In this document: one piece after another, positions 612 through 36,031 of the stretch | Layout of the letters: every line of letters begins with the position of its first letter | Position numbering within the stretch: position 1 is the stretch's first letter | NCBI RefSeq assembly: GCF_003046475.1 | Contig: NZ_PZZZ01000008.1 | Span: 186,001 to 250,000, forward strand | Length of the DNA stretch: 64,000 nt | Source of the DNA: Mycoplana dimorpha | GTDB taxonomy: Bacteria; Pseudomonadota; Alphaproteobacteria; Rhizobiales; Rhizobiaceae | Direction of reading: 5' to 3' | The notes under the pieces: model-generated | The model's database searches: none | What the model was told of the DNA's origin: nothing | The model's input: only the letters and a program-made list of their open reading frames with translations | Translations under genes and position numbers: made by a program

Positions 612-633
612 GGGCAGGCAAGGGCGGCGAAGG

Positions 634-812: not shown

Positions 813-846
813 CCCCAGGAACAACAGACACGACGGGAACGACCAC

Positions 847-2337: not shown

Positions 2338-2344
2338 CGGTTGG

Positions 2345-2576: not shown

Positions 2577-3737
2577 ATGAATTTCGCACTGACCGACGAA
2601 CAGCAGATGATCGTCGACACGGTCCGCACGTTCGTCGAGACCGAGATCTATCCGCATGAGAACGAGGTGGAGCGCACCGGTTTCGTGCCGCCGGAACTGG
2701 GCCAGGAAATCGCCCGCAAATGCAAGGAAATCGGCTTCTTCGGCTGCAACTTCCCCGAAGAAGTCGGCGGCGCCGGGCTCGACCACACCTCCTTCACCCT
2801 GGTCGAGCGCGAGCTCGGCCGTGGCTCGATGGCGTTGACGGTGTTCTTCGGTCGCCCGTCCGGCATCCTGATGGGCTGCAACGCCGAACAGCGCGAAAAA
2901 TACCTGCTTCCCGCAGTGCGCGGCGACAAGTTCGACGCGCTCGCTATGACCGAGCCGGACGCCGGTTCCGACGTGCGCGGCATGAAATGTTTTGCCCGCC
3001 AGGACGGCGACGACTGGATCGTCAACGGCACGAAGCACTTCATCTCTCACGCCAACATCGCCGATTTCGTCATCGTCTTCATCGCCACCGGCGAGGAGGA
3101 GACGCCGCGGGGGCCGAAGAAGAAGATCACCTGCTTCCTCGTCGACCGCGGTACGCCGGGCTTCGAGATCCGCGACGGCTACAATTCCGTCTCGCACCGC
3201 GGCTACAAGAACTGCATTCTCACCTTCGACGACTGCCGCCTGCCGTCGTCGCAGATCCTCGGCGAAGTCCACCGCGGCTTCGATGTCGCCAACGACTGGC
3301 TCTATGCGACCCGCCTTACGGTTGCGGCCACCTCCGTCGGCCGGGCACGCCGCGCCTTCGACTACGCTCTGAACTATGCGGCCGAGCGAAAGCAGTTCGG
3401 CAAGCCGATCGGCGCCAACCAGGGGGTCTCCTTCAAGCTCGCCGACATGATCACCGAGATCGACGCTGCCGACCTGCTGACGCTGTCGGCCGCCTGGCGC
3501 CTCGACCAGGGCCTGCCGGCCAACCGCGAGATCGCCTCGGCGAAGGTCTACGCCACCGAGATGCTCGCCCGTGTCACCGACGAGGCGATCCAGATCTATG
3601 GCGGCATGGGCCTGATGGACGACCTGCCGCTCGCCCGGTTCTGGCGCGATGCGCGCGTCGAACGCATCTGGGACGGCACCTCGGAAATCCAGCGGCACAT
3701 CATCAGCCGCGAGTTGCTGCGGCCGCTGGGAGCGTAA
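2577..3737 (+). CDS. acyl-CoA dehydrogenase, candidate gamma-butyrobetainyl-CoA dehydrogenase
   Basis: 386 residues, full length for the family; the RBS GGGAGG precedes the ATG. N-terminal helical, middle beta and C-terminal helical domains are all present, with FAD-binding ALAMTEPDAGSD and the C-terminal IQIYGGMG and GTSEIQR motifs. It would introduce the alpha,beta double bond into an acyl-CoA. With the following synthetase and CaiD-like hydratase, gamma-butyrobetainyl-CoA is a sensible substrate. Odd point: the usual catalytic Glu in the EGTSEIQ motif is Asp366 here (WDGTSEIQR). Electron transfer flavoprotein genes are not in the window. Confidence 0.88.
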   Translation: MNFALTDEQQMIVDTVRTFVETEIYPHENEVERTGFVPPELGQEIARKCKEIGFFGCNFPEEVGGAGLDHTSFTLVERELGRGSMALTVFFGRPSGILMGCNAEQREKYLLPAVRGDKFDALAMTEPDAGSDVRGMKCFARQDGDDWIVNGTKHFISHANIADFVIVFIATGEEETPRGPKKKITCFLVDRGTPGFEIRDGYNSVSHRGYKNCILTFDDCRLPSSQILGEVHRGFDVANDWLYATRLTVAATSVGRARRAFDYALNYAAERKQFGKPIGANQGVSFKLADMITEIDAADLLTLSAAWRLDQGLPANREIASAKVYATEMLARVTDEAIQIYGGMGLMDDLPLARFWRDARVERIWDGTSEIQRHIISRELLRPLGA

Positions 3738-3745
3738 GTGCTGAC

Positions 3746-5800: not shown

Positions 5801-5804
5801 GCCC

Positions 5805-6587
5805 ATGACCGGACCGATCCGCAAGCGTCGCGAAGGCGGCATATTGGAAGTCACCATCGACCGCCCGAAGGCGAACGCCATCGACCTGGCGACCAGCCGG
5901 CTGATGGGCGAGATCTTCCGCGACTTTCGCGACGACGACACCCTGCGGGTGGCGATCGTCACGGGTGCGGGGGAGAAATTCTTCTGCCCCGGCTGGGACC
6001 TGAAGGCGGCCGCAGCCGGCGACGCGGTCGACGGTGACTACGGCGTCGGCGGCTTCGGCGGCATGCAGGAACTGCGCGACCTGAACAAGCCGATCATCGC
6101 CGCCGTGAACGGCATCTGTTGTGGCGGCGGTTTGGAAATTGCGCTTTCCACAGATTTGATTCTGGCCGCCGAGCACGCCACCTTCGCGCTGCCCGAGATC
6201 CGCTCCGGCACCGTCGCCGACGCCGCATCGATCAAGCTGCCGAAGCGCATTCCCTATCACATTGCGATGGACATGCTGCTCACCGGCCGCTGGCTCGATG
6301 TGCAGGAGGCGCACCGGTGGGGTTTCGTTAACGAGATCCTGCCGCCGAGCAAGCTGCTCGAGCGAGCCTGGGAACTCGCCCGCCTCCTGGAAAGCGGGCC
6401 TCCGCTCGTCTACGCCGCCATCAAGGAGGTGGTGCGCGCGGCCGAGGGAGAGACCTTCCAGACGACGATGAACAAGATCACCAGGCGCCAGTTCAAGACT
6501 GTGGATATCCTTTATTCGAGCGAGGACCAGTTGGAGGGTGCGCGCGCCTTCGCCGAGAAGCGCGATCCGGTGCGGAGGGGTCGCTAG
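5805..6587 (+). CDS. enoyl-CoA hydratase, CaiD-like (crotonobetainyl-CoA hydratase candidate)
   Basis: 260 residues, almost the length of E. coli CaiD. It has the crotonase fold with oxyanion-hole segments around GAGEKFFCPGWDLK and NGICCGGGLEIAL. The catalytic pair is Glu111 (GGGLE) and Glu131 (LPEIRSG), the positions used in CaiD. It starts four bases after the synthetase stop, so the two are likely co-translated. Expected reaction: crotonobetainyl-CoA plus water to carnitinyl-CoA. A dedicated CoA transferase (CaiB) is absent, so release of free carnitine would need a thioesterase or the ADP-forming synthetase in reverse. Confidence 0.87.
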   Translation: MTGPIRKRREGGILEVTIDRPKANAIDLATSRLMGEIFRDFRDDDTLRVAIVTGAGEKFFCPGWDLKAAAAGDAVDGDYGVGGFGGMQELRDLNKPIIAAVNGICCGGGLEIALSTDLILAAEHATFALPEIRSGTVADAASIKLPKRIPYHIAMDMLLTGRWLDVQEAHRWGFVNEILPPSKLLERAWELARLLESGPPLVYAAIKEVVRAAEGETFQTTMNKITRRQFKTVDILYSSEDQLEGARAFAEKRDPVRRGR

Positions 6588-20466: not shown

Positions 20467-21627
20467 ATGAAGCGATTCCTGCATTCCTGCACTGCGCTTA
20501 CGCTTTCCGTCGCATTCGCCACCGCTGCCGTCGCGCAGGAGCCGCTGACGGAACTCGGCAAGGGTGAAGGCGAGGTGTCGATCGTGGCCTGGGCGGGCTA
20601 CATCGAGCGCGGCGAGACCGACAAGAACTACGACTGGGTCACCGACTTCGAGAAGCAGACCGGCTGCAAGGTTTCCGTCAAGACCGCCGCCACCTCAGAT
20701 GAAATGGTGGCGCTGATGAACGAGGGCGGCTTCGATCTGGTCACCGCTTCCGGCGACGCCTCCAATCGCCTGATCGCCGGCAAGCGCGTCCAGCCGATCA
20801 ACACCGACCTGATCCCGAGCTGGAAGACCATCGACGAGCGCCTGCAGAACGCGCCGTGGAACACCGTCAAGGGCGTCCACTACGGCACCCCCTATCTCTG
20901 GGGTCCGAACGTCCTGATGTACAACACCGAGGTTTTCAAGGGCGAGGCCCCGAAGAGCTGGAACGTCGTGTTCGAGGAAATGACGCTGCCCGACGGCAAG
21001 TCGAACAAGGGCCGCATCCAGGCCTATGACGGCCCGATCCACATCGCCGACGCCGCCAACTACCTGATGGCGCACAAGCCGGAACTCGGCATCAAGGACC
21101 CCTACGAGCTCAACGAAGACCAGTACAAGGCGGCGCTCGACCTGCTGCGCGTGCAGCGCACTCTCGTCGGCCGCTACTGGCACGATGCGATGATCCAGAT
21201 CGACGACTTCAAGAACGAGGGCGTCGTCGCCTCCGGCTCGTGGCCCTTCCAGGTCAACCTGATGCAGGCGGAAAAGCAGCCGATCGCCTCGACCTTCCCG
21301 GAGGAAGGGGTGACGGGCTGGTCGGACACGACCATGCTGCACGCCGACAGCCAGCACCCGAACTGCGCCTACATGTGGATGGAGCATTCGCTGTCGCCGA
21401 AGGTGCAGGGTGACGCCGCCGCCTGGTTCGGCGCCGTGCCGTCCGTGCCAGCCGCCTGCAAGGGCAATGCCTTGCTGGGCGACGAGGGCTGCAAGACCAA
21501 CGGTTTCGAGAACTTCGACAAGATCCGGTTCTGGAAGACGCCGACGTCGAAGTGCGAGACCCAGGGCGAATGCGTGCCCTATCACCGCTGGGTGTCCGAC
21601 TATATCGGCGTGATCGGCGGCCGCTGA
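20467..21627 (+). CDS. ABC transporter substrate-binding protein, PotD/YdcS-like
   Basis: 386 residues with a Sec signal peptide (MKRFLHSC...AVAQE, cleavage near 24). It is a polyamine-type (SBP_bac family 1/PotD) periplasmic protein, with GEGEVSIVAWAGYIE, FDLVTASGDASNRLI and a C-terminal half rich in conserved Trp and Cys. Length and gene order (binding protein, ATPase, two permeases, aldehyde dehydrogenase) match E. coli ydcSTUVW. The ligand is likely a polyamine, aminoaldehyde or betaine-like cation; sequence cannot choose. Confidence 0.9.
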   Translation: MKRFLHSCTALTLSVAFATAAVAQEPLTELGKGEGEVSIVAWAGYIERGETDKNYDWVTDFEKQTGCKVSVKTAATSDEMVALMNEGGFDLVTASGDASNRLIAGKRVQPINTDLIPSWKTIDERLQNAPWNTVKGVHYGTPYLWGPNVLMYNTEVFKGEAPKSWNVVFEEMTLPDGKSNKGRIQAYDGPIHIADAANYLMAHKPELGIKDPYELNEDQYKAALDLLRVQRTLVGRYWHDAMIQIDDFKNEGVVASGSWPFQVNLMQAEKQPIASTFPEEGVTGWSDTTMLHADSQHPNCAYMWMEHSLSPKVQGDAAAWFGAVPSVPAACKGNALLGDEGCKTNGFENFDKIRFWKTPTSKCETQGECVPYHRWVSDYIGVIGGR

Positions 21628-21641
21628 TCGCTGCTCTGCCA

Positions 21642-21658
21642 CCTCCCCAACAGGGAGG
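21642..21658 (+). other. hairpin after the binding-protein gene
   Basis: CCTCCC and GGGAGG pair around 5 bases, 14 bases after the stop. The 209-base gap to the ATPase gene is further filled by G/C-rich degenerate inverted repeats reminiscent of rhizobial intergenic elements. No gene. Confidence 0.35.
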
Positions 21659-21836
21659 ATTGGTCCGGGCCGGGAGGGGCATTCCCTCGCTCGAACGAGA
21701 ATTGTTCCCTCCCAGCCCTCACCCCCAAGCGGGGCGAGGGCAAGCAAGGGTGCGGCCTGCCCGTGCCCCCTCGCCGCCCCGCCTGCGCAAGGAAACTGGC
21801 CGGCATGCCGGGGCAAAACATAACATCGGAGTTCCC

Positions 21837-22835
21837 ATGACCGCCGTCCTGTTCGAGAATGTTTCCCGCCACTTCGGGGCCGTGCGCGCCGTCGACAGCG
21901 TGAACCTCGCCATCGCCGAGGGCGAATTCTTCGCCATGCTCGGCCCGTCCGGCTCGGGCAAGACCACGTGCCTGCGGCTGATGGCCGGCTTCGAGCAGCC
22001 GACCGGCGGGCACATCGAGATCTTCGGCGAGACCGCCGAGGGCGTGCCGCCCTACCGGCGCAACGTCAACACCGTGTTCCAGGACTATGCGCTCTTCCCG
22101 CATCTCTCCATCCTGGAGAACGTCGCCTACGGGCTGATGGTCAGGGGCATTGCCAAGGCCGAGCGGCTGAAGGCGGCCGAGAACGCTCTCGCCATGGTCA
22201 AGCTTCCCGGCTACGGCAGCCGCCGCCCTGGCCAGCTTTCGGGCGGCCAGCGCCAGCGCGTGGCGCTCGCCCGGGCGCTCGTCAACCGCCCGCGCGTGCT
22301 CTTGCTCGACGAGCCGCTCGGGGCGCTCGACCTGAAGCTGCGCGAGCAGATGCAGGAGGAGTTGAAGGCGCTGCAGAAGTCGCTCGGCATCACCTTCGTG
22401 TTCGTCACCCATGACCAGGGCGAGGCCCTTTCGATGGCCGACCGCATCGCCGTCTTCAACGAGGGCCGGGTGCAGCAACTGGGGACGCCGGAGGACGTCT
22501 ACAAGCGGCCGCAGACCCGCTTCGTCGCCGACTTCGTCGGTTCGTCGAACGTGTTGGCCCCGTCCTTCGTCCACAGCCTCGGCTATCCCGCCCGCTACGC
22601 AAGCCTGCGTCCCGAGGCGCTGGCACTCGGCGAAGGCGGATCGAACGCCAGGCGCTTTTCCGGCACCGTGGTCGCGACCAGCTTCCTCGGCGCCACCAAC
22701 CGCCTGACTGTTGAGGCAGCGGGCACCCGAATTGCCGCCATGCTTCCGGCCTCGGCCGCCGTTCCGCCGCAGGGCACGGGCGTCACCCTTTCGTTTGCAG
22801 CAGAAGACCTGCACCTGATGGACGAAGCCGCATGA
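21837..22835 (+). CDS. ABC transporter ATP-binding protein, PotA/YdcT-like
   Basis: 332 residues from the ATG at 21837; the in-frame upstream extension is repeat sequence. It has Walker A GPSGSGKTT, Q-loop FQDYALFPH, signature LSGGQRQR, Walker B VLLLDEPLGALD and H-loop VTHDQ. A shortened C-terminal TOBE domain follows (about 255-332). It powers the permeases encoded next, with a 4-base overlap. Confidence 0.93.
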   Translation: MTAVLFENVSRHFGAVRAVDSVNLAIAEGEFFAMLGPSGSGKTTCLRLMAGFEQPTGGHIEIFGETAEGVPPYRRNVNTVFQDYALFPHLSILENVAYGLMVRGIAKAERLKAAENALAMVKLPGYGSRRPGQLSGGQRQRVALARALVNRPRVLLLDEPLGALDLKLREQMQEELKALQKSLGITFVFVTHDQGEALSMADRIAVFNEGRVQQLGTPEDVYKRPQTRFVADFVGSSNVLAPSFVHSLGYPARYASLRPEALALGEGGSNARRFSGTVVATSFLGATNRLTVEAAGTRIAAMLPASAAVPPQGTGVTLSFAAEDLHLMDEAA

Positions 22836-23782
22836 GCGTGGTCGCCGAAAACCCCATCCTCGCGCGCCGGACAAGCACGTTCGGACGCCTGTCGGATTAT
22901 TTCTGGCTCAATCCGAAGCTTTTTCTCCTGATGCTGCTCGCCCCGCCGCTACCCTGGCTCGGCATCATTTATCTCGGTTCGCTCTTCGCCCTGCTCCTGC
23001 AGAGCTTCTTTTCGATCGACGAGTTCTCCGGCCTCATCAACTACGAGTTCACGCTGGACACTTATCGTCAGCTGTTGATCCCGGCCAATTTCGACATCAT
23101 CCTGCGCACCGTGATCATGGCGGCGCTGGTGACGCTCGCGTCTGCCCTGATCGCCTTTCCGATCGCCTATTACGCAGCCCGGTACGCCCGCGGCAAATGG
23201 AAGGCGCTGTTCTATCTCGCCGTCATGCTGCCGCTCTGGTCGAGCTATCTCGTCAAGGTCTACGCTTGGAAGCTGATCCTTGCGAAGGAGGGCATCCTCA
23301 ACTGGGGGTTTGCCAAGCTGCACCTGACCTGGCTGCTCGACGCCTGGCTGGCGCTGCCGGTGGTCGGCGGCAACTCGCTGTCGATCAGCTACACCGGCAC
23401 CTTCATCGTCTTCGTCTATGTCTGGATGCCGTTCATGATCCTGCCGATCCAGGCGGCGCTCGAACGCGTGCCGGTGAACCTGATAGAGGCCTCCGCCGAC
23501 CTCGGCGGCAATCCCGGGCAGACCTTCCGCCACGTGCTGTTCCCGCTGGCGCTGCCGGGCATCATCGCCGGCTCGATCTTCACCTTCTCGCTGACCCTCG
23601 GCGACTACATCATCCCGCAAATCATCGGCTCGTCGCGCCTGTTCATCGGCCAGGCCGTCTACGCCCAGCAGGGCACGGCCGGCAACATCCCGCTTGCCGC
23701 CGCCTTCACCGTCGTGCCGATCGTCATCATGGGCTTCTACCTGTGGATGGCCAAGAAACGGGGGGCCTTCGATGCGCTCTGA
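22832..23782 (+). CDS. ABC transporter permease, PotB/YdcU-like
   Basis: 316 residues, with about six transmembrane helices, a long N-terminal cytoplasmic part and the EAA loop [25 protein letters not shown]. It starts ATGA-overlapped with the ATPase gene and overlaps the next permease by 11 bases. It is one half of the channel. Confidence 0.92.
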
Positions 23783-24584
23783 CCGTTCCTCCGCTCCCAT
23801 GAGCCTGAAGATCACCGCGGCCGCAGGCCTGCTGTTCATGCACCTGCCGATCCTGCTGATCTTCGTCTATGCCTTTACCACCGAGGAAAAGAGCTACCAG
23901 TTCCCGCCGCCAGGCTTCACGCTCAACTGGTTGGCAGTGGCCTGGAACCGGCCGGACGTGTGGGCGGCGCTCAGTCTCTCCGTCCGCGTGGCGTCAATCG
24001 CCACCGCCGTGGCGCTGGTGCTCGGCACGCTGTGTGCGGCGGCTGTCAGCCAGACCCGCTTCTTCGGCCGGGAGGCGATTTCGCTGCTCGTCATCCTGCC
24101 GATCGCCCTGCCCGGCATTATCACCGGCATCGCGCTGCGCTCGGCATTCTCGTTTGCCGACATTCCCTTCTCGTTCTGGACGATCGTGCTCGGCCACGCG
24201 ACCTTTTGCGTCGTCGTCGTCTACAACAACGCCGTCGCCCGCTTCCGGCGCATCTCCGGCTCGATGATCGAGGCCTCGATGGACCTCGGCGCCGACGGCT
24301 TCCAGACGTTCCGCTACGTGATCCTGCCGAACATCGGCACGGCGCTTCTCGCCGGCGGCATGCTCGCCTTCGCGCTGTCGTTCGACGAGGTGATCGTCAC
24401 GACCTTTACCGCCGGCCAGCAGCAGACGCTGCCGATCTGGATGCTGGAGGAACTGGTGCGGCCGCGCCAGCGTCCGGTCACCAACGTGGTCGCCATGGTG
24501 GTGGTGCTCGTCACCTTCCTGCCGATCCTCGCCGCCTACTACCTCACCCGCGAAGGCGACCAGATCGCTGGCGCCGGCAAGTAA
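23772..24584 (+). CDS. ABC transporter permease, PotC/YdcV-like
   Basis: 270 residues from the ATG at 23772; MSLKI at 23799 is an alternative start. There are six predicted helices and the EAA loop [23 protein letters not shown]. The polyamine-permease motif [16 protein letters not shown] is present. It is the second half of the channel. Confidence 0.92.
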
Positions 24585-24615
24585 CAACAGCCTTGGGACA
24601 ATGGGAGACCTTGTG

Positions 24616-26043
24616 ATGGATACGCAGATGCTGATCGGCTCGCGCTTCGAGGCCGGCACCGAAACGGAGGAGCACATCCTCAACCCGAAGACCGGCGAGA
24701 CCGTGGTCAACCTGCCGGAAGCCTCGCATGCGCAGATCGACGCCGCCGTCGACGCGGCGGAGAAGGCCTTCACCTCCTGGTCGATGACAACGCCCGGCGA
24801 GCGCTCCAGCTATCTGCTGAGGATCGCCGATGCGATCGAGCGGGATGCCGACGGCTTTGCGGCGCTCGAATCGCTCAATTGCGGCAAGCCGATCAACGCC
24901 GTCCGTAACGACGAAATCCCCGCGATCGTCGATTGCTGGCGCTTCTTCGCGGGCGCGGTGCGCTCCATGCATGCAACCGTCGCCGGCGAATATCTGCCCG
25001 GTCACACCTCGATGATCCGCCGCGACCCGGTCGGCATCATCGGCTCGATCGCGCCCTGGAACTATCCGCTGATGATGATGGCCTGGAAGCTGGCGCCGGC
25101 GATCGCCGGCGGCAACACGGTCGTCTTCAAGCCGTCCGAACAGACGCCGCTGACCGCCCTGAAAATGGCGAAGCTGCTCGCCGACATCCTGCCCGAAGGC
25201 GTCGTGAACATCGTGCTCGGTCGCGGCGAGACCGTCGGCAACGCGCTGATCAACCATCCGAAGATCAACATGGTCTCGATCACCGGCGACGTCGCCACCG
25301 GCAAGAAGGTGCTCGCCGCCGCCTCCAAGACCGTGAAGCGCACCCATCTCGAGCTCGGCGGCAAGGCGCCGGTCATCGTCTATGACGATGCGGACCTCGA
25401 CGCGGTCGTAAACGGCATCCGCGCCTTCGGCTACTACAATGCCGGCCAGGACTGCACCGCCGCCTGCCGCATCTATGCCGAAGACGGCATCTACGAAAGG
25501 TTCGTCGCCGACCTGTCGTCGGCCGTGTCGAGCATCCGCTTCAACCAGGCCGACGACACCGAGAACGAAATCGGCCCGCTGATTTCGAAGCGCCAGCGCG
25601 ACCGTGTCGCGAGCTTCGTCGAGCGTGCTGCCGAAGTGAAGCACATCGAAGTGACCACCGGCGGGCGGCCCGGCAGCGAGCAGGGCTTTTTCTACCAGCC
25701 GACGGTCGTCGCCGGTGCGACGCAGGAGGACGAGATCGTCCGCCGCGAGGTGTTCGGCCCGGTGGTCTCCGTGACGCGTTTCTCCGGCGAGGACCAGGTG
25801 CTTGCCTGGGCCAATGACAGCGACTACGGCCTCGCCTCGTCGGTCTGGACGAAGGACATCTCCAAGGCGATGCGGGCCGCCGCGCGGCTGCAATACGGCT
25901 GCACCTGGATCAACACCCACTTCATGCTGTGCAACGAGATGCCGCATGGCGGCGTCAAGCAGTCGGGCTATGGCAAGGACATGTCGATCTATGCGCTGGA
26001 GGACTATACCGCCGTCCGGCACGTGATGATCAATCACGGCTGA
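24616..26043 (+). CDS. aldehyde dehydrogenase, gamma-aminobutyraldehyde/betaine-aldehyde type (PatD/YdcW-like)
   Basis: 475 residues from the ATG at 24616 (GGGAGA seven bases before); an ATG at 24601 would add five residues. The NAD-binding Rossmann fold has PWNYPLMM. General base Glu246 is in ELGGKAP and nucleophile Cys280 in [11 protein letters not shown]. Length and residue numbers coincide with E. coli PatD/YdcW, which oxidises 4-aminobutyraldehyde. With a carnitine module elsewhere in the window, 4-trimethylaminobutyraldehyde, giving gamma-butyrobetaine, is an alternative substrate. It is the last gene of the operon. Confidence 0.9.
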
Positions 26044-26961: not shown

Positions 26962-26995
26962 GTTCCGGCAAGCTCCGCAGCTTTGGAAAGATGTG

Positions 26996-27568
26996 CTAGG
27001 CGGGAACGCCCAGGGTTTCGAGCACATCGGCCGTCCGCACGACTGTCGCGAACTCCTCGCGCAAGGTCGCAACATGGGCGCGGTGGATCTCCCGGGCCGG
27101 GATCATGCCGCCATCGCCGTCGGGCAGGTCAAAGCAGTCGCAGGCATCCTCGACGAGGATGACGCGCAGGCCGAGATTTGCGCCGACCCGCACGCTCGTC
27201 GACACGCACATGTCGGTCGAGATGCCGAACAGCACCACCGTATCGACGCCGAGACGCCGCAGCCGCAGGTCGAGATCCGTGCCGATGAAGGCGGCGTTCA
27301 CGCTCTTTGTGACCAGCGGCTCGCCCGGCAGCGGTCCGAAGCCGGGCCGAAAGGCGTTCCCCGGGGCCCCGGGCCGAAGCGTCGAGTTCGGCTCGACGCT
27401 GTCGTGGCGGACGTGGATCAACGGTCGGCCGGCAGCGCGCCAAGCCGCAAGCAGCGCGAGGCCGTTCTCGTCGACCTTGTCGTTCCAACGGCTGGGCCAG
27501 GGGGCTGTGTCGAAGGCCTGCTGCATGTCGATCGGAATGAGGGCGGCGTTCTGGGGGATTGTCGGCAT
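26996..27568 (-). CDS. isochorismatase-family cysteine hydrolase
   Basis: 190 residues from ATG 27568 with GGAGAA upstream. The catalytic triad is in place: Asp14 (IPIDMQQAF), Lys88 (VTKSVNAAF) and Cys121 (GISTDMCVSTSVR). The family hydrolyses isochorismate, nicotinamide, N-carbamoyl amines and similar bonds. The specificity is not readable from sequence. It is divergent from an Lrp gene with repeated CGGACG boxes between them, so it is probably Lrp-controlled. Confidence 0.86.
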   Translation of the reverse strand: MPTIPQNAALIPIDMQQAFDTAPWPSRWNDKVDENGLALLAAWRAAGRPLIHVRHDSVEPNSTLRPGAPGNAFRPGFGPLPGEPLVTKSVNAAFIGTDLDLRLRRLGVDTVVLFGISTDMCVSTSVRVGANLGLRVILVEDACDCFDLPDGDGGMIPAREIHRAHVATLREEFATVVRTADVLETLGVPA

Positions 27569-27620
27569 TCGGGTTCTCCGTGGGTGGATGATCGGGTGAA
27601 TGACCGGACCGTAGTTGCTT

Positions 27621-27670
27621 GTTCGTCCGATTTCGTGCAGCAAGGTGACGGACGACCGGACGAACGTCCG
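27621..27670. promoter_or_regulatory. cluster of CGGACG boxes, candidate Lrp operator
   Basis: GTTCGTCCG (27621-27629), CGGACGAC (27649-27656), CGGACGAAC (27657-27665) and CGTCCG (27665-27670) lie in the 123-base gap between the divergent isochorismatase and Lrp genes. The first and third are perfect inverted copies. Several half-sites in phase suit an octameric Lrp-type regulator. Confidence 0.45.
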
Positions 27671-27691
27671 CTAGCAGTTGGAAATTTCCGG

Positions 27692-28138
27692 ATGAACGTA
27701 CTTGACGAGAAAGACCGGCTCCTCATCGCCGCACTTCGAGCGGACGCCCGCAAGAGCCTCGTCGAACTGGCGCGCGACTGCGGGCTGTCACGCAGCGCCG
27801 TGCATGAACGGATCCGGCGACTGGAGGACAAGGGCGTGATCGCCGGCTATACCGTCCGCCTCGGCGCCGATCGGGACAGGCCGGGCGTTGAGGCATTGAT
27901 CGCCATCTGCTTTCAATCGGGGCGGAACTGCGACCACGTCGTGCCGCACCTGACCGGCATCCCCAGCGTCGTCACCTGCTGGTCGCTGGCCGGCCCGACC
28001 GACCTGATGCTTCTTGTCGAGTGCGCCTCGAATGCGGAACTCGACACCGTGCGCCGCCAGATCGCGACGACGCCCGGTATCGCCACCGTGCAGACGCATG
28101 TTTCGCTGCGCACCCACTTCGATCGCCGCGGCGGTTGA
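27692..28138 (+). CDS. Lrp/AsnC-family transcriptional regulator
   Basis: 148 residues. The N-terminal HTH (about 5-55) has LVELARDCGLSRSAVHERIRRLEDKGVIAGYTV. The C-terminal RAM effector domain (about 68-145) ends TPGIATVQTHVSLR. The family binds amino acids and usually controls its divergent neighbour; here that is the cysteine hydrolase. Confidence 0.9.
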   Translation: MNVLDEKDRLLIAALRADARKSLVELARDCGLSRSAVHERIRRLEDKGVIAGYTVRLGADRDRPGVEALIAICFQSGRNCDHVVPHLTGIPSVVTCWSLAGPTDLMLLVECASNAELDTVRRQIATTPGIATVQTHVSLRTHFDRRGG

Positions 28139-28237: not shown

Positions 28238-29782
28238 TCAGAAATAGATCTTGAACTTCTCGCGCACCGCCAGGTCGACATCGCGGTCGAACAGCGGCCG
28301 GCCGGCCTCCGAAAGAATCCGGTTCTTCCGTTCGATCGCCTTGGCGACCAGGTCGGGCTTGCCGATCTCGGCCCACTCCTTCGGGCTCGTGCGGTCGGCG
28401 ACGGCCGGATAGACATACTCCGTCTGCATCAGCGACAGCGTCTGCGGATCGCCGAGGTAATGGCCGGGGCCGCCCATGCAGACCGAACGCATGGTCTCGA
28501 GCGAAACCGAATCCTCGGTCACGTCGATGCCGCGGACGCAACGCTGCACCTGGCCGAGCAGGTCGTCGCCGAGCACGAGGCTTTCCATGCAGAAGCCGAG
28601 CAGCGAGCCATGCATGCCGACGGCTTCGTAGACCATGTTTAGGCCCGACAGACCGGCCATGACGTTGGAGATCGCCTGTTCCCAGCCCGCCTGCATGTCG
28701 GGCAGCTTGGAATCGGCGATGCCCGCCGCCGCGCCTCCCGGCAGCCCGTAGAACTGGTGCATCTGCGCGCAGCCGGCCGTCAGCAGCGCCTGTTCGCCCG
28801 AACCGCCGGACATCGCGCCCGTCCTGAGGTCGGAAACGAAGGGCCAGGTGCCGAAGATCGCCGGATGCCCCGGCGCCATGGCGTTGACATAGACGACACC
28901 CGCCAGGCACTCGGCGACCGCCTGCACGATCGCGGTCGCGAGCGGCGCGGGTGCGGTGGCGCCCGCCTGCCCTGCCGAAAGCAGCAGGATCGGCATGCCG
29001 GCCCGGATGCAGGCCTCCATGGTGATGCAGCTCTCCTCGGCGAACTTCATCGGCGGCACGACGAAGCAGTTCGAGTTCGACACGAAGGGCCGTTCGCGCC
29101 ACTTGTCCTCGCCGCCCGCCATCATGTGGATGAGGTCGAAGCAGCCCGCCACGTGCGAGGGGTCGGAGAAGCTGGTGCCGACATGCTTGGACGTGCCGGC
29201 GCAGCAGGCATAGAGCGTGTTGATGTCCATCAGGAAGTTGTCGGCCACGTCGCGGCAGACCATCGCCCGCTGGAAGAAGTGAATGTTGTCGAGATGATGG
29301 ACGAGCTGGGCGGCGTTATAGAGGTCCTTCGCCGTCGATTCCCGATATTCGCGCTTTTCCACGTCGACGATGTGGACCGCAGCGCCCGCCGTGCCGTAGT
29401 AGACGCGCGTGCCGGACAGTTCCAGGTCGTACTTCGGATCACGGCCATAGAGCGTGATGTCGCGTGCGGCGACTGCCAGCATGTCCTCCACCAATGCGCG
29501 GGGGAACCGGATGCGGCCGTCTTCGCCCAGGATCGCGCCAGCGCCGGTCATGATCTCGATGCCGGATTTCGGCGCGTTGGACAGGCCGATGTTCTCCAGC
29601 GCATCGAGCGCCGCCTCGTGGATGCGGCGCACGCCTGCCTCGGTCAGCGGCTTGTACTGGCCACCCGGCAGGCCGGGCCGGACCGGCCGGATGTTTTCGG
29701 CCAGAGGCGCGGCCCGCATGGCGACGCGCGCCGCGCGTCCGCCGGCTCGCCGCGAGTTCTGTGATGCTTCGACAATGCTCAT
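28238..29782 (-). CDS. MttB-superfamily (trimethylamine methyltransferase family) protein, non-pyrrolysine type
   Basis: 514 residues from ATG 29782. The frame is unbroken with no in-frame amber codon, so it is the non-pyrrolysine branch, like the glycine betaine methyltransferase MtgB. Family signatures across the TIM barrel include LSNAPKSGIEIMTGAGA, HMMAGGEDKW, GTWPFVSDLRTGAMSGGSGEQALL and MGGPGHYLGDPQTL. Members move a methyl group from a quaternary amine to a corrinoid protein. Here it is the third gene after two FAD-GcvT dehydrogenases, which points to glycine betaine or a related betaine. No corrinoid protein gene is in the window, so the methyl acceptor is unknown. Confidence 0.88.
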   Translation of the reverse strand: MSIVEASQNSRRAGGRAARVAMRAAPLAENIRPVRPGLPGGQYKPLTEAGVRRIHEAALDALENIGLSNAPKSGIEIMTGAGAILGEDGRIRFPRALVEDMLAVAARDITLYGRDPKYDLELSGTRVYYGTAGAAVHIVDVEKREYRESTAKDLYNAAQLVHHLDNIHFFQRAMVCRDVADNFLMDINTLYACCAGTSKHVGTSFSDPSHVAGCFDLIHMMAGGEDKWRERPFVSNSNCFVVPPMKFAEESCITMEACIRAGMPILLLSAGQAGATAPAPLATAIVQAVAECLAGVVYVNAMAPGHPAIFGTWPFVSDLRTGAMSGGSGEQALLTAGCAQMHQFYGLPGGAAAGIADSKLPDMQAGWEQAISNVMAGLSGLNMVYEAVGMHGSLLGFCMESLVLGDDLLGQVQRCVRGIDVTEDSVSLETMRSVCMGGPGHYLGDPQTLSLMQTEYVYPAVADRTSPKEWAEIGKPDLVAKAIERKNRILSEAGRPLFDRDVDLAVREKFKIYF

Positions 29783-29906
29783 TTCTTTCCCTCCCGCCCT
29801 CAGGCGCCCAGTTTTGACGCACCGCCTGCCCCTCCTCCAAGGTTCGGCGGTTGCGTGCCGGGGCGAGATTTTTCCCTCCCCGGCGGTCGATTTTGGCACT
29901 TCCTGC

Positions 29907-29933
29907 CAATCCCTCACGAACCGTGAGGGATTG
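29907..29933. promoter_or_regulatory. 12-bp perfect hairpin between FAD-GcvT and MttB genes
   Basis: CAATCCCTCACG pairs with CGTGAGGGATTG around AAC. It lies in the 219-base gap within the minus-strand operon, about 70 bases after the FAD-GcvT stop. It could attenuate or process the transcript ahead of mttB, or be an operator for a separate mttB promoter. No T-run follows on either strand. Confidence 0.45.
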
Positions 29934-30001
29934 TGCTATCTCGCGCCGCCTCCTCTGTTCTGGCTACGGACGGGCGGCGGCAGGCGGGTGGGCGATACAG
30001 G

Positions 30002-32449
30002 TTACATCCGTACCCGCGCCGCCTTCGGATCGTACATCGGCACCAGCGACGCTTCCGCCTTGACCCGCACGCCGGCGATCTCGACCTCGTAGCTGGACGC
30101 CAGCACCTGCTCCTCGCTCTCGCCCTCGCAGGGCACATAGCCCATGCCGATGGCGCCGCCGAGATGATGCCCGTAGTTGCCCGAGGTGATGATCGAAACG
30201 ATCTTGCCGTCGCGCACCAGCGCCTCGTTGTGGAAGAGCAACGGTTCGGGATCGGCGAGCTTGAACTGCAGCATCCGCCGCTTCAGGCCTTCCTCCTCCT
30301 TGCGCAACACCGCGTCGCGGCCGATGAACTCGCCCTTCTTTGTGCGCACCGCAAAGCCGAGGCCGGCCTCGAGAACGTGGTCCTCGTCGGTGATGTCATG
30401 ACCGAAATGGCGGAAGGCCTTCTCGATCCGGCAGCTGTCGAGCGTATGCAGGCCGCACAGCTTCAGGCCGACGTCAGCACCTGCCGCCTCCAGCGTCTCG
30501 AACACGTGCGCCGTCTGGTCGGTGGAGACGTAGAGCTCCCAGCCGAGTTCGCCGACATAGGTGACCCGGTGGGCGCGGGCCAGCCCCATGCCGATCTCGA
30601 TCTGCCGCGCCGAGGCGAAGGGATGGCCTTCGTTCGAAAAGTCGTTGGGGCTGACCTTCTGCATCAGCTCGCGCGCCTTCGGCCCCATCACGCAGAGCAC
30701 GCTTTCGGCTGCCGTCACATCGGTGATGACGACGAACTCATCGCGGACGTGCTTGCGCAGCCATGCAAGGTCGCGCTGCAGCGTCGCGCCGGGCACGACG
30801 AGGAAGAAGGCGGTCTCGGACAGGCGCGTTACCGTCAGGTCGCTCTCGATGCCGCCGCGATCATTCAGCATCTGCGTGTAGACGATGCGGCCGGGGGTCA
30901 CGTCCATCTGGTTAGCGCAGAGCCTTTGCAGGAAGGCGAGCGCATCGCGGCCTTCGACGCGGATCTTGCCGAAGGAGGTCATGTCGAACAGGCCGACGCC
31001 GTTGCGCACCGCCAGGTGCTCCTCCTTCTGGTTCTCGAACCAGTTCTGCCGCTTCCAGCTGTAGCGGTATTCCCGCTCCTGCCCTTCCTTGGCGAACCAG
31101 TTGGCGCGCTCCCAGCCGGCGACCTCGCCGAAGACGGCGCCGCGAGCCTTCAGGTGCTCGTGGATCGGCGAGCGGCGCACGCCGCGGGCCGTCGCCATCT
31201 GCCGATAGGGGAAGTGGTCGGCATAGAGCAGGCCAAGCGTCTCGGAGACACGGTCCTTCAGATAGGCGCGGTTCTTCTGGAACGGCTGGGCACGGCGGAT
31301 GTCGACCTCCCAAAGATCAAAGGGCGGCTCGCCGTCGTTCATCCACTGCGCCAGCGCCATGCCGGCGCCGCCGGAGGAGACGATGCCGATCGAGTTGTAG
31401 CCGGCGGCGACCCAGTAGCCCTTCAGTTCCGGCGCCTCGCCAAGATAGTAGCGGTCGTCCGGCGTGAAGCTCTCGGGACCATTGAAGAAGGTATGAATGC
31501 CGGCGGTCTCCAGCATCGGCAGACGGTTGATGGCGTTTTCCAGGATCGGCTGGAAATGGTCGAAATCCTCCGGCAGCTGGTCGAAACAGAAGTCCTCGCG
31601 GATTCCCTCCATGCCCCAGGGCTTGGCCTTCAGCTCGAAGGCGCCGATCAGCATCTTGCCGGCGTCTTCCTTGTAGTAGGTGCATTCGTCCGGCACGCGC
31701 AGGACGGGGAGCTGCTTCAGGCCGTTGATCGGCTCGGTGACGATGTAGAAATGCTCGCAGGCGTGCAGCGGCAGCGTCACGCCCGACATGTCGGCGAGGG
31801 TGCGCCCCCACATGCCGGCGGCGTTGACAACGTTTTCCGTCTCGATCGTGAAGGTCTCGCCGTTCTGCTCGCAGGTGACGCCGGTGACGCGACCGTCCTT
31901 CGTCAGCACCGAGGTGACCTTGACGCCCTCGATAACGGTCGCGCCGTTCTGCCGTGCACCCTTCGCCAGCGCCATCGCGATGTTGGCCGGGTCGCACTGG
32001 CCGTCAAGCGGCAGGTGCACGGCCGCCTTGACGTCCGCCGTGTTGAGGTGCGGGTACATCGCCTTCACCTCGTCGACCGATATCTCGCGCACGTCCACGT
32101 CGAAGGCGCGGGCCAGCGAGGCCTGGCGATAGATCTCCTCCTTGCGCTCCTCGGTAAGCGCCACCGTCATCGAGCCGCACTGCTTCATGCCGGTGCCGAT
32201 ACCGGTCTCCGCCTCCAGCTTGACGTAGAGGTCGGCCGAATACTTCGCGAGCCGCGTCATGTTCTGCGAGGCGCGCAACTGGCCGATCAGACCGGCCGCG
32301 TGCCAGGTCGTGCCGCAAGTCAGCTGCTTGCGTTCGAGCAGCACCACGTCGGTCCAGCCGAGCTTGGCGAGGTGATAGGCGACCGAACAGCCGGATACGC
32401 CGCCGCCGATGATCACGGCTCTCGCCTTGGAGGGAATGGTCTTGCTCAT
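30002..32449 (-). CDS. FAD-dependent oxidoreductase with GcvT domain (dimethylglycine/sarcosine dehydrogenase family), second of pair
   Basis: 815 residues. N-terminal DAO-type FAD domain (about 10-370) with GGGVSGCS and His50 in TCGTTWHAAGL, the residue that carries the flavin covalently in this family. A FAO-type middle section is followed by GcvT folate-binding domains (about 430-810: RNGVGLFDMTSFGKIRVEG, YVGELGWELYV). The expected reaction is oxidative N-demethylation with the methyl passed to tetrahydrofolate. It overlaps the upstream paralogue by four bases (ATGA). Whether it acts on dimethylglycine, sarcosine or another N-methyl amine is not decidable. Confidence 0.9.
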   Translation of the reverse strand: MSKTIPSKARAVIIGGGVSGCSVAYHLAKLGWTDVVLLERKQLTCGTTWHAAGLIGQLRASQNMTRLAKYSADLYVKLEAETGIGTGMKQCGSMTVALTEERKEEIYRQASLARAFDVDVREISVDEVKAMYPHLNTADVKAAVHLPLDGQCDPANIAMALAKGARQNGATVIEGVKVTSVLTKDGRVTGVTCEQNGETFTIETENVVNAAGMWGRTLADMSGVTLPLHACEHFYIVTEPINGLKQLPVLRVPDECTYYKEDAGKMLIGAFELKAKPWGMEGIREDFCFDQLPEDFDHFQPILENAINRLPMLETAGIHTFFNGPESFTPDDRYYLGEAPELKGYWVAAGYNSIGIVSSGGAGMALAQWMNDGEPPFDLWEVDIRRAQPFQKNRAYLKDRVSETLGLLYADHFPYRQMATARGVRRSPIHEHLKARGAVFGEVAGWERANWFAKEGQEREYRYSWKRQNWFENQKEEHLAVRNGVGLFDMTSFGKIRVEGRDALAFLQRLCANQMDVTPGRIVYTQMLNDRGGIESDLTVTRLSETAFFLVVPGATLQRDLAWLRKHVRDEFVVITDVTAAESVLCVMGPKARELMQKVSPNDFSNEGHPFASARQIEIGMGLARAHRVTYVGELGWELYVSTDQTAHVFETLEAAGADVGLKLCGLHTLDSCRIEKAFRHFGHDITDEDHVLEAGLGFAVRTKKGEFIGRDAVLRKEEEGLKRRMLQFKLADPEPLLFHNEALVRDGKIVSIITSGNYGHHLGGAIGMGYVPCEGESEEQVLASSYEVEIAGVRVKAEASLVPMYDPKAARVRM

Positions 32450-34896
32450 GCACGCAGTCTTTCATTGTTGGGATCATAGAGTGGTCCGTCCGGCTGGACG
32501 GTAGCCTTGAAGCGGTCGCCGTAGATCTCGACCTCGATTTCCGTGCCCGGCTCGGCGAGGTCGGCACGCAGCATCCCGAGCGCGATCGACTTGCCGGTGC
32601 GGTAGCCCCAGTTGCCGGAGGTGGTCTCGCCGACCACCTTGCCGCCGTGCCAGAGCGTCGACATGTAGGGGGCGTCGCATTCGCCGGCCTCCACCGTCAG
32701 AAGCACGAAGCGCTTGGAAATGCCCTGCTGCTTTTCGCGCTCCAGCGCCGCCTTGCCCTTGAAGGCAGGCTTGGACCAGTCGACGAAGCGCTCGAGCCCG
32801 CCCTGCAGGATCGTGTAGTCGGTCGAAAGATCGCCCTTCCAGGCACGGTAGCCCTTCTCGATGCGAAGCGAGTCCAGCGCCTCCATGCCGAACGGCTTCA
32901 GCCCGTGCTTCTGGCCGGCGGTCCAGACGGCATCGAAGATCGTCGCGGTGTCCTCGACCTTGCTGTGGATCTCCCAGCCGAGCTCGCCTGCGAAGGACAC
33001 CCGCACCAGCTGGCACCAGCGGCCGGCGATCTGACAGCTCTGGTGCGTCAGCCAGCCCCTGGAAAGGTCGGCGTCGGAGACCTCGGCCAGAATCGCCCGA
33101 GAGTTCGGGCCGGAGAGAATCTGGCAGGAGAAGTTGTCGGTGACGTCCTCGATCGTGAAGGCGGCATCGTTCGGCAGGTGCTTTTTCAGCCACTCGAAAT
33201 CGTGCCACTGTGCCGTCGCCGCGGTGATCAGGAAGAAGAAGTCCTCGTCCAGCATCATCACCGACATCTCGGTGACGATGCGGCCCTTGTCGTCGGCGAA
33301 ATAGGCAAGGCCGATGCGGCCGGGCTTCGGCAGCTTGCCGGTGGTGAGCGTCGACAGCCAGGCCGTCGCCCCCGCACCCTGGACGCGGAAGCGCGAGAAG
33401 CCGGGAAGATCGAGGATGCCGGCGGCCTCGTGCACCGCGCGGCATTCCTCCTCGATGCGCGGCCGCCAAGGGCCTTCGCGGTTCCAGGTCTGCGTTGCCT
33501 GCTCGGAGGTATCGTCACCGGGCTTGGCATACCAGTTGGCGCGCTCCCAGCCGTTGAAGGGCTTGAACTGCGCGCCCAGCGCCTTGACCTGGTCGTGGAT
33601 CGGCGAGAGCTTCCGGTCGCGCCCGGCCGGCCAGGCGTGCTTCGGGAAATGCATCGCATATTCGTGGCCGTAGATCTCCATGCCCTTGGCGATGCAGTAG
33701 TCCTGGTCCGCGGCGAAGCTGGTGTAGCGGCGCGGATCGCAGGACCACATGTCCCACTCCGTCTCGCCTTCGGTGATCCATTCGGCCAGCACCTTGCCGG
33801 CGCCGCCCGCCTGGCAGATGCCGAAGGTGAAGACGCAGGCCTCGAACGCGTTCGGCACGCCCGGCATCGGGCCGATCAGCGGATTGCCGTCCGGCGCATA
33901 GGGGATCGGCCCGTTGATCACCCGCGACAGTCCGGCGGTGCCGAGGATCGGCACGCGTTCGCAGGCGTCGTTCAGGTACCATTCCAGCCGCTCCAGGTCG
34001 TCCGGGTAGAGCTGGAAGGAGAAATCGTCCGGCATCGGATCGTCCGGCGTCGTCCAGTGCGCCTTGCAGTTCCTCTCGTACGGCCCGAGGTTCATGCCGT
34101 TCTTTTCCTGGCGCAGATAGTAGGAACTGTCGACGTCACGCAGCAGCGGCAGCTTGTGGCCGACCTCCTTCGACCAGGCGGCGAGTTCCGGGATTTCCTC
34201 GAACAGGACGTACTGGTGGCTCATCACCATCATCGGCACGTCGCGGCCGAACCACTTGCCGACCTCGCGGGCGTAGTAGCCTGCGGCGTTGACGACGTAT
34301 TCGCAGCGGATCTCGCCTTGCGGCGTCGAGATCACCCACTCCTCGTTCTCCCGGCGGGCGCCGGTCGCCGGGCAGAAACGGAAGATCTTCGCACCCATGT
34401 CGCGCGCGCCCTTTGCCAGGGCTTGCGTCAGCTGCGCCGGGTCGATGTCGCCGTCATTGGGATCGTAGAGCGCGCCGGTCAGGTCGTGCGTCTCGACGAA
34501 AGGATAGCGGGACTTGATCTGGTCCGGCGTCAGGATATCGAGGTCCATGCCCTGGTACCGGCCCATGCCGACGACGCGCTTGAACTCCTGCAGGCGCTCC
34601 TTGGAGTGGCCGAGGCGGATCGAGCCGGTGACGTGGTAGTTCATCGGATAGTCGACCAGCGCGCCCAGATCGCGATAGAGCGAGGCCGAATAGCGCTGCA
34701 TGTTCATGATCGACCAGGAGGCGGAGAAGGTCGGCACGTTGCCGGCCGCATGCCAGGTCGAGCCTGCCGTCAGCTCGTTCTTCTCCAGAAGCACGCAGTC
34801 GGTCCATCCGGCCTTGGCCAGATGATAGAGCGCCGAGGCGCCGACAGCCCCGCCTCCGATGATGACGACGCGCGCATGTGATGGCAAGTTCGACAT
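32446..34896 (-). CDS. FAD-dependent oxidoreductase with GcvT domain (dimethylglycine/sarcosine dehydrogenase family), first of pair
   Basis: 816 residues, the promoter-proximal gene of the minus-strand operon. FAD motif GGGAVGAS, His49 in TAGSTWHAAG, then the GcvT region (about 430-815: AAGILDLPGFSRFRVQG, FAGELGWEIHSK, TSGNWGYRTGKS). The same architecture as the next gene but well diverged, so the pair probably handles successive or different N-methyl substrates, for example dimethylglycine then sarcosine. A LysR gene diverges from it across a 286-base gap with an AT-rich palindrome. Confidence 0.9.
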   Translation of the reverse strand: MSNLPSHARVVIIGGGAVGASALYHLAKAGWTDCVLLEKNELTAGSTWHAAGNVPTFSASWSIMNMQRYSASLYRDLGALVDYPMNYHVTGSIRLGHSKERLQEFKRVVGMGRYQGMDLDILTPDQIKSRYPFVETHDLTGALYDPNDGDIDPAQLTQALAKGARDMGAKIFRFCPATGARRENEEWVISTPQGEIRCEYVVNAAGYYAREVGKWFGRDVPMMVMSHQYVLFEEIPELAAWSKEVGHKLPLLRDVDSSYYLRQEKNGMNLGPYERNCKAHWTTPDDPMPDDFSFQLYPDDLERLEWYLNDACERVPILGTAGLSRVINGPIPYAPDGNPLIGPMPGVPNAFEACVFTFGICQAGGAGKVLAEWITEGETEWDMWSCDPRRYTSFAADQDYCIAKGMEIYGHEYAMHFPKHAWPAGRDRKLSPIHDQVKALGAQFKPFNGWERANWYAKPGDDTSEQATQTWNREGPWRPRIEEECRAVHEAAGILDLPGFSRFRVQGAGATAWLSTLTTGKLPKPGRIGLAYFADDKGRIVTEMSVMMLDEDFFFLITAATAQWHDFEWLKKHLPNDAAFTIEDVTDNFSCQILSGPNSRAILAEVSDADLSRGWLTHQSCQIAGRWCQLVRVSFAGELGWEIHSKVEDTATIFDAVWTAGQKHGLKPFGMEALDSLRIEKGYRAWKGDLSTDYTILQGGLERFVDWSKPAFKGKAALEREKQQGISKRFVLLTVEAGECDAPYMSTLWHGGKVVGETTSGNWGYRTGKSIALGMLRADLAEPGTEIEVEIYGDRFKATVQPDGPLYDPNNERLRA

Positions 34897-35182: not shown

Positions 35183-36031
35183 ATGCAGATCGAACTGATC
35201 GAAACCTATCTGGACCTGATGGAGACCCGCAGTTTCAACCGTACGGCGGAGCAACTGAACGTCACCCAGTCGACCGTGTCGCATCGGATCAAAGCGCTGG
35301 AAGGCGTGCTCGGCCGGCCGCTTTTCACCCGCAGCAAGGGCGGCACCCAGCCGACCGCGGCCGGATTGCGCTTCCACGACCACGCCAAGGCCCTGCAGCA
35401 CCAGTGGCACGAGGCCGCGCGCGCCGTCGAGTCGGCCGGCGCCTATGAACGCTCGATGCGCATCGGGCTCCAGCACGACCTCGCGGCCCATTATGCCGGC
35501 GACTGGCTTGCGACCATGCGCAAGGAACTGCCGGGCACGTCGATCTATGTGGAGGTGGACTATTCCATCCAGATGAACCGCGATCTCGCCGCCGGCGAAC
35601 TCGACCTGGCGATCCTCTACACGCCGCACTACCTGCCCGACCTGCACTACGAGCGCATCGGCGACGTCCTGTACGAACTGGTCAGCAACAAGGTGACGAC
35701 CATCGCCGACATCCGCCCGGAGGATTACATCCAGGCTGTCTATTCGCCAGCCTTCGACCGCCTGCATCGCCAGGCCCACCCGCACCTCTCCGCCGCGCCG
35801 ATCGCCAGCGGCGAGACCACGGCGATCATCGCCCTACTGACGAAGCTCGGCGGCTCGGCCTACGTGATCGAGGCCGACGCGCGGCGACTGTTGCGAACCG
35901 GCGCCGTCAACCGCGTCCAGGGCGCGGAGCCGATCCCGCAAACCGTCTATGCCGCTGTCAACGTGCGCACCCGTCACGCCCATCAGCACCGGCGGCTGAT
36001 CAATACCATGCAAGCGCTGCTGAACGGCTGA
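35183..36031 (+). CDS. LysR-family transcriptional regulator
   Basis: 282 residues. The HTH (about 3-60) reads IETYLDLMETRSFNRTAEQLNVTQSTVSHRIKALEGVLGRPLF, followed by a LysR substrate domain. It diverges from the FAD-GcvT/MttB operon, the classic layout for a LysR activator of that operon. The ligand is probably a betaine or N-methyl amine; this is inferred from context only. Confidence 0.9.
   Translation: MQIELIETYLDLMETRSFNRTAEQLNVTQSTVSHRIKALEGVLGRPLFTRSKGGTQPTAAGLRFHDHAKALQHQWHEAARAVESAGAYERSMRIGLQHDLAAHYAGDWLATMRKELPGTSIYVEVDYSIQMNRDLAAGELDLAILYTPHYLPDLHYERIGDVLYELVSNKVTTIADIRPEDYIQAVYSPAFDRLHRQAHPHLSAAPIASGETTAIIALLTKLGGSAYVIEADARRLLRTGAVNRVQGAEPIPQTVYAAVNVRTRHAHQHRRLINTMQALLNG

Follow-up and report, generated by a model that had tools for sequence, protein, structure and literature searches.

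The question raised by this locus is how a homologue of the MttB methyltransferases that lacks pyrrolysine works in an operon with two flavin adenine dinucleotide (FAD) dehydrogenases carrying GcvT (folate) domains, when no gene for a corrinoid protein accompanies it. The operon lies in a 64,000-nucleotide stretch of the Mycoplana dimorpha genome (contig NZ_PZZZ01000008.1, positions 186,001 to 250,000), which we refer to as the window and to which all coordinates below belong. We consider it probable that the three products, here called FG3, FG2 and X, remove N-methyl groups stepwise from a trimethylammonium compound, most likely glycine betaine formed from gamma-butyrobetaine and carnitine. 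No new methyl-transfer chemistry or route, including one from MttB to folate, is required by the data. The operon consists of the following features:

32446–34896, minus strand: FG3, FAD and GcvT (folate) amine dehydrogenase, 816 amino acids (DAO, FAO_M, GCV_T, GCV_T_C)
30002–32449, minus strand: FG2, FAD and GcvT (folate) amine dehydrogenase, 815 amino acids (DAO, FAO_M, GCV_T, GCV_T_C)
29908–29932, no strand: perfect 11-base inverted repeat between FG2 and X (sole match in the window, 0 in 100 shuffles)
28238–29782, minus strand: X, non-pyrrolysine methyltransferase of the MttB superfamily in a separate clade, 514 amino acids (PF06253, 364 bits)

An original prediction, made from the window's sequence, had described an operon of a non-pyrrolysine MttB homologue and two FAD-GcvT dehydrogenases with no local corrinoid protein, and this is confirmed by the open reading frames, by their domains and by an isoleucine (Ile355) at the pyrrolysine position of X. 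Transcription on the minus strand runs from FG3 to FG2 and then X. The operon is tight for FG3 and FG2, which overlap by 4 bases, and looser for X, because the 219-base gap between FG2 and X contains the inverted repeat and has a predicted folding more stable than that of its shuffles (z −4.7). The start of X was moved to the ATG at 29782, behind GGAGGGAAAGAA; a start at 29917 (the longer frame 28238–29917) is too early, and in 21 of 27 close homologues (loci L013–L039) the match starts no earlier than residue 42 of this longer frame. The repeat may be a putative attenuator or terminator-like element. Its slot holds a Rieske gene in one relative (L043) and a phosphoenolpyruvate-mutase-like gene in seven (L042 and six others), and the frames of FG2 and X overlap by 4 bases in nine relatives when the earliest possible start is taken.

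X matches PF06253 with 364 bits (cut-off 25) over positions 1–489 of the 500 in the profile and so belongs to the MttB superfamily, and its 341 bits against TIGR02369, the pyrrolysine-containing trimethylamine methyltransferases, fall below the curated cut-off of 525. Its AlphaFold model (mean predicted local distance difference test score 77.9) has the MttB TIM-barrel fold, the modelled chain aligning with MttB 7XCL at Z 47.6 over 439 residues and with MtgB 9YCE at Z 46.3, with 4YYC and 2QNE close behind. In sequence, X is similarly far from MtgB 2QNE (192 bits) and from pyrrolysine MttB (186 bits). In a tree of 63 sequences, which took in the paralogues of the host and left out 2QNE, X groups with its divergent relatives in a single clade (support 0.98), to the exclusion of the 23 canonical sequences. 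The subfamily can be aligned from end to end, with a mean column identity of 64% across 23 members and of 80% across 40 closer members; the closest named homologues are those of Shinella sp. WSJ-2 (95%) and Mycoplana azooxidifex (94%).

Pocket residues were mapped by alignment to Methanosarcina MttB, using the residues named in the available part of PMC9842639 and comparing 21 close (strict) X sequences. Pyl334 of MttB corresponds to Ile355, and all 21 subfamily members have Ile or Met there. Gly110 is retained as Gly133 in X numbering, Thr111 is replaced by Ala134 and Met249 by Ala270, each in all 21 strict sequences, the last position being Phe in 21 of 23 canonical sequences. Tyr364 is Tyr385 throughout the strict set and in 5 of the 19 divergent X sequences, and next to the pyrrolysine site X keeps the D-x-K, D-x-Q and E positions.

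FG3 and FG2 each carry DAO, FAO_M, GCV_T and GCV_T_C on one chain, which places both in the dimethylglycine dehydrogenase family, and their best solved relatives are dimethylglycine dehydrogenases (4PAB, 4P9S) at 583 bits for FG3 and 458 bits for FG2; none of the 25 best NCBIfam family matches of either protein reached its cut-off. Further FAD-GcvT genes occur in the host on contigs C7 and C2 (stretches L160 and L161).

Neither the operon nor the neighbouring genes that were scanned showed a B12-binding domain. The host genome (4.59 Mb in 22 contigs, 100% complete by tool estimate) carries four PF06253 genes by profile search and two PF02607 proteins (the genome-wide search did not include PF02310 by itself): one, on contig C3, is a 1270-amino-acid frame taken as MetH on account of its size, the other an MtgC-type protein of 271 amino acids on contig C4. 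The single RACo/RamA of the genome is also on C4, where the genes follow the order MtgB (768 bits), B12-binding protein, DUF1638, formyl-transferase-like protein, PF13769, C-terminal domain of methylenetetrahydrofolate reductase (MTHFR), MTHFR, pterin-binding protein and RamA; a homocysteine methyltransferase gene precedes MtgB by a few kb. The PF02607/PF02310 protein, the PF00809 protein and the RamA of an MtgBCD-type genome are therefore all present on C4, and the cluster matches the MtgBCDE set given for S. meliloti in PMC12478193. An organism without a corrinoid protein, one candidate explanation for the operon, is ruled out by the MtgC-type protein. The original prediction had also offered a distant corrinoid protein as the partner of X, and this fits the genome, where the one MtbC/MttC-type protein and the one RamA returned by a genome search are clustered with MtgD and a MetF paralogue. 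The aerobic MtgBCD system was published in 2025 and tested genetically in R. pomeroyi via mtgC and mtgD; the sharing of one MtgC by several MttB homologues in aerobes was already suggested there, as was the use of the same MtgC route for further methylated substrates in genomes with several PF06253 genes (PMC12478193).

The absence of a local corrinoid gene, which the prediction had thought remarkable, proved ordinary in comparison with other loci. These sets were hand-picked (canonical, 20 loci plus three of the host; strict X, from 20 of 29 genomes) and cover ~8 kb on each side, less where a contig ends. Of 23 canonical alphaproteobacterial MttB loci, MtgC was in the stretch in 4 and absent in 19, whilst ten carried an FG gene, eight of them without MtgC. 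An FG gene was near X in 16 of 20 strict and 8 of 20 divergent loci, and at the thresholds used MtgC, MtgD and RamA were beside X in none of these 40. Among 80 relatives, MtgC and RamA were near X in none and an MtgD homologue in one (L101). The pairing of MttB with FAD-GcvT genes in the absence of a corrinoid gene is thus no peculiarity of the host operon, an idea that both the canonical and the X loci rule out. Open reading frames of the relatives' loci were called by a crude codon-composition method, which missed the X of L135 (recovered by tblastn). A canonical MttB of the type found on host contig C7 (46–55%) is found no more than 8 kb from X in three loci (L222, L223, L224), beside the FG3-FG2-X array.

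Across genomes, X at 49% identity or more was found in 29 of the 289 genomes of the class sample, host included, followed by matches at 37–46% and then at 24–29%. Co-occurrence was counted in 33 genomes, these 29 and four with a best match of 41–43%. RamA is present in 31 of the 33; for the whole class sample, which includes those 31, the figure is 65 of 289. Of the 29 genomes with X at 49% or more, 28 have RamA, the exception being 68% complete. A small PF02607 protein (frames of 231–403 amino acids) accompanies X in 28 of 33 genomes, and from this co-occurrence we infer that X uses the MtgC of the host.

Gene order in relatives ties X to the dehydrogenases and, more sparsely, to carnitine breakdown. 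Of the 63 loci that extend 8.5 kb or more upstream of X, 45 have both FG3 and FG2 ahead of X on the same strand and two have FG3 alone. Genes leading from carnitine to glycine betaine occur within 10 kb of X in 3 of the 80 relative loci, some of which are on short contigs: in L072 (Geminicoccaceae) the genes for BKACE, CdhA, acyl-CoA dehydrogenase, acyl-CoA synthetase, CaiD, FG3 and X are contiguous on one strand, in L070 an acyl-CoA dehydrogenase and CaiD are upstream of X, and in L104 CaiD alone is beside it. In a Shinella locus (L175), acyl-CoA synthetase and CaiD lie ~10 kb before FG3. A GbcA-like Rieske gene is beside X in 4 of 80 loci (L043, L044, L050, L051), and in Neorhizobium L167 and Rhizobium L168 the order LysR-FG3-FG2 is followed by a GbcA-like gene in place of X (257 bits, below the GbcA cut-off of 670) with a full carnitine cluster adjoining; X was not found on the replicons of these two loci at E 1e-50, a search that did not extend to the chromosomes. 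These neighbours support the route from gamma-butyrobetaine and carnitine to glycine that the original prediction had found plausible; the carnitine genes it mentions are present at 3–6587 of the window. Overall, that prediction is partly supported.

In searches of plasmids, FG2 matched 507 records and X matched 21. In 15 plasmid loci chosen by hand from longer match lists, 11 have no X. FG3 and FG2 occur together in six of the 11, accompanied by Rieske and carnitine genes in two and, in four (L164, L169, L170 and L171, on Rhizobium, Agrobacterium and Sinorhizobium fredii plasmids), lying beside genes for electron-transfer flavoprotein (ETF) and near FolD and PurU. The latter arrangement is consistent with dehydrogenases that feed ETF and tetrahydrofolate. 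One locus with no intact X (L163) keeps a 95-residue MttB fragment. The FG3 of Rhizobium sp. CC-CFT758 (L168:9534–12000) and the FG2 of S. meliloti Ak57 (L165:9394–11900) each match in two pieces with no listed gene, so either gene may be broken.

The genes and their domains, the predicted fold of X, the single system of MtgC-type protein and RamA, the conserved gene order and the carnitine and Rieske neighbours are observed; the reaction, the partner of X, the order of FG3 and FG2, the acceptor ETF and the substrate in the following scheme we infer. X would transfer the first methyl group of a quaternary amine to Co(I) on the MtgC-type corrinoid protein of contig C4, from which MtgD would pass it to tetrahydrofolate, and the MetF paralogue would oxidise the folate-bound methyl, whilst RamA and the DUF1638 protein would keep the cobalt reduced. 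FG3 and then FG2 would oxidise the remaining N-methyl groups, from dimethylglycine to sarcosine and to glycine, loading methylene onto tetrahydrofolate in their own GcvT domains and giving the electrons to ETF.

Several observations weigh against this scheme, above all against its substrate. Arg350, in X numbering, is present in 23 of 23 canonical sequences and at the aligned position of Desulfitobacterium MtgB, and is Gly in 20 and Ala in one of the 21 strict X sequences; His386, found in 22 of 23 canonical sequences and in the same MtgB, is Glu in all 21, and among 19 divergent sequences Arg350 is kept in none and His386 in four. Arg350 and His386 are presumably substrate-binding residues, in which case the pocket of X would be built differently from that of MtgB; Arg172, present in 21 of 21 strict and 18 of 19 divergent sequences, could be an alternative carboxylate binder. 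MtgB is also much nearer to other host paralogues, on contigs C4 (412 bits), C1 (430) and C7 (329), than to X (192), and given the C4 and C1 scores the host already holds better glycine betaine candidates. Another gene like dimethylglycine dehydrogenase is present on C7 (544 bits to the solved enzyme), and contigs C5 and C6 carry frames of the size of sarcosine oxidase. The carnitine genes of the window are 22 kb away from X, those of relatives were not detected in 77 of 80 loci at the thresholds used, and neither FG gene is upstream of X on its strand in 16 of 63 loci, one of which (L110) has the pair on the opposite strand. X as an MtgB orthologue is ruled out by the clade, by the bit scores and by the replaced Arg and His: it groups separately from the host paralogues and has Gly350 and Glu386.

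Arguments for glycine betaine are the carnitine genes, the exchange with Rieske oxygenases and the dimethylglycine-dehydrogenase-like enzymes; arguments against it are the pocket residues, the closer MtgB paralogues, the C7 gene and the C5 and C6 frames. We give glycine betaine nearly an even chance of being the substrate, and regard another betaine or onium compound as a serious possibility that falls clearly short of even. In one such alternative, X would be corrinoid-dependent but act on some other onium compound, such as gamma-butyrobetaine, carnitine, proline betaine or a sulfonate betaine, and FG3 and FG2 would demethylate what it produces. The unlike pocket speaks for it, as do the varied contexts of the X clade (a D-cysteate sulfo-lyase in L127, sulfoacetaldehyde-acetyltransferase-like proteins below the cut-off in L166 and L123, a dimethylsulfoniopropionate (DMSP) demethylase in L130) and the MttB members of Eubacterium, which use different betaines via one corrinoid protein (PMC12478193 and the available part of PMC8604678). 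Yet the pathway genes found next to X proper, in 3 of 80 loci, end in glycine betaine, and among enzymes of solved structure it is dimethylglycine dehydrogenase that FG3 and FG2 resemble most. We think this alternative rather unlikely.

Least credible is that X works without a corrinoid protein, with free cobalamin or by handing methyl groups directly to folate on FG2 or FG3. The 40 strict and divergent loci, where MtgC, MtgD and RamA are all lacking, can be cited in its support, and so can two genomes in which no small PF02607 protein was found: G176 (93% complete) has X and RamA, and G247 (99% complete) has no RamA and a 41% X homologue with an FG gene. With G064, G193 and G071, which are 64–82% complete, they make up the five of the 33 X genomes where this small protein was not found. 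These five count against the shared-MtgC scheme, and the RamA co-occurrence is confounded by a second PF06253 gene in 32 of 33 X genomes; since nearly all X genomes hold a canonical MttB, it is no proof that X needs RamA. On the other side, the only RamA miss among genomes with X at 49% or more is in an incomplete one, and the solved structure of MttB with MttC has the corrinoid placed above this same barrel, as described in the available part of PMC9842639. In G247, the X homologue (locus L139) is cut at a contig end, with a FAD-GcvT gene beside it, and the only PF02607 protein is a 989-amino-acid frame. Since ~4 kb separate MtgC from RamA in the related genome G148, a single gap in the assembly could account for the lack of the two, and the argument for a corrinoid-free X from G247 was not accepted; among the 17 genomes of the family to which G247 belongs, a strong X homologue was otherwise found in G302 and G148 alone, and each of these has RamA. 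Very improbable as well, if not to the same degree, is that X is no methyltransferase in vivo, being regulatory or a relic, with FG3 and FG2 alone functional. FG2 or FG3-FG2 without X in 11 of the 15 plasmid loci would agree with this, but conservation of X extends across rhizobia, Rhodobacteraceae and further groups, its pocket has invariant residues and its frame in the window is intact. Stepwise demethylation by X, FG3 and FG2 with the MtgC of the host is the reading that we prefer.

Three loci place members of the X clade beside genes for sulfur compounds. In L127:5134–10237 (G176), an MttB of the clade (41%) faces the D-cysteate sulfo-lyase CuyA (516 bits, cut-off 450) with a FAD-GcvT gene adjoining, a possible trimethyl-cysteate pathway. 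On the R. pomeroyi DSS-3 megaplasmid (L166:9929–19249), an X homologue (46%) is found with a class III aminotransferase, two FAD-GcvT genes and a thiamine-pyrophosphate enzyme most like sulfoacetaldehyde acetyltransferase (401 bits, below the cut-off of 620), possibly for taurine betaine breakdown. In L130:8743–15933 (G213), an X homologue (38%) lies ~4.5 kb from the DMSP demethylase DmdA (634 bits, cut-off 410). Among the literature listings, nothing concerned the X subfamily, and no paper combined 'taurine betaine' with 'demethylation'.

The remaining features of interest in the window are the carnitine cluster and a regulator:

3–611, plus strand: BKACE, dehydrocarnitine cleavage enzyme, cut by the window edge (PF05853; 88% to a Rhizobium gene)
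847–2337, plus strand: carnitine 3-dehydrogenase fused to a thioesterase (NF005716, 890 bits, cut-off 592)
2577–3737, plus strand: acyl-CoA dehydrogenase of the carnitine cluster (88% identity to a relative's gene)
3746–5800, plus strand, approximate ends: acyl-CoA synthetase of the carnitine cluster (75% to a Neorhizobium gene)
5805–6587, plus strand: CaiD-like enoyl-CoA hydratase (91% to Neorhizobium caiD)
35183–36031, plus strand: LysR-type regulator, transcribed away from the operon (matches to LysR models stay below cut-off)

The LysR-like family, judged by sequence, was found in 48 of the 80 relative loci. Downstream of X, the last 150 residues of the open reading frame 26993–28138 form an Lrp/AsnC regulator convergent with X, and six Sinorhizobium/Ensifer relatives have a gene judged Lrp-like on the same basis in this place. 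At 20467–26043 are a YdcS-like substrate-binding protein (below cut-off), a polyamine-type ATP-binding cassette transporter and an aminobutyraldehyde dehydrogenase (814 bits, cut-off 615). From this transporter and dehydrogenase, putrescine or gamma-aminobutyric acid was considered as the operon substrate and set aside. The aminobutyraldehyde dehydrogenase is near X in 9 of 80 loci (L042–L050), all Rhizobiaceae and none Rhodobacteraceae, and is therefore no defining part of the operon.

The reading gives a named, testable role to widespread 'trimethylamine methyltransferase family protein' genes of rhizobia and Rhodobacteraceae, links X-type genes to carnitine and betaine turnover and gives a distinct, widespread MttB clade a predicted place there; if it is true, the cobalamin demand of aerobic betaine catabolism reaches beyond MtgB. 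More tentatively, and with considerable doubt, X may represent a second great branch of aerobic MttB enzymes, which takes the first step of onium demethylation through a shared cobalamin hub, is paired with FAD-GcvT enzymes in many genomes, has come to act on several substrates, sulfonate betaines among them, and is swapped with Rieske enzymes in the same operon slot.

Amongst known systems, the glycine betaine demethylase and split methionine synthase MtgBCD of R. pomeroyi (PMC12478193) is alike in that its MttB-family proteins work with MtgC, MtgD, RamA and DUF1638 not necessarily encoded alongside; X differs in its separate clade, its pocket residues and its tie to FG3-FG2, and the published mutants are in mtgC and mtgD, not in X. 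With Desulfitobacterium MtgB (2QNE, 9YCE), X shares the fold (Z 46) and the lack of pyrrolysine, whilst being 26% identical over the aligned region, as it is to the C4 MtgB of the host, with Gly and Glu for the Arg and His of MtgB. Pyrrolysine MttB-MttC (7XCL, 7XCN; available part of PMC9842639) shares with X the fold and the equivalents of Gly110 and Tyr364, and differs where X has Ile or Met for pyrrolysine and Ala for both Thr111 and Met249. FG3 and FG2 have the domain order of the dimethylglycine and sarcosine dehydrogenases, of which SPO3400 and SPO3396 of R. pomeroyi are a predicted pair with folate domains (available part of PMC4744692), but stand as two tandem copies beside an MttB homologue. 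Finally, a gene resembling that of GbcA, the Rieske glycine betaine monooxygenase, replaces X after FG3-FG2 in two rhizobia; its oxygenase chemistry differs from that proposed for X. The reading suggests that a demethylase of either kind, cobalamin-dependent or oxygen-dependent, can fill this operon slot.

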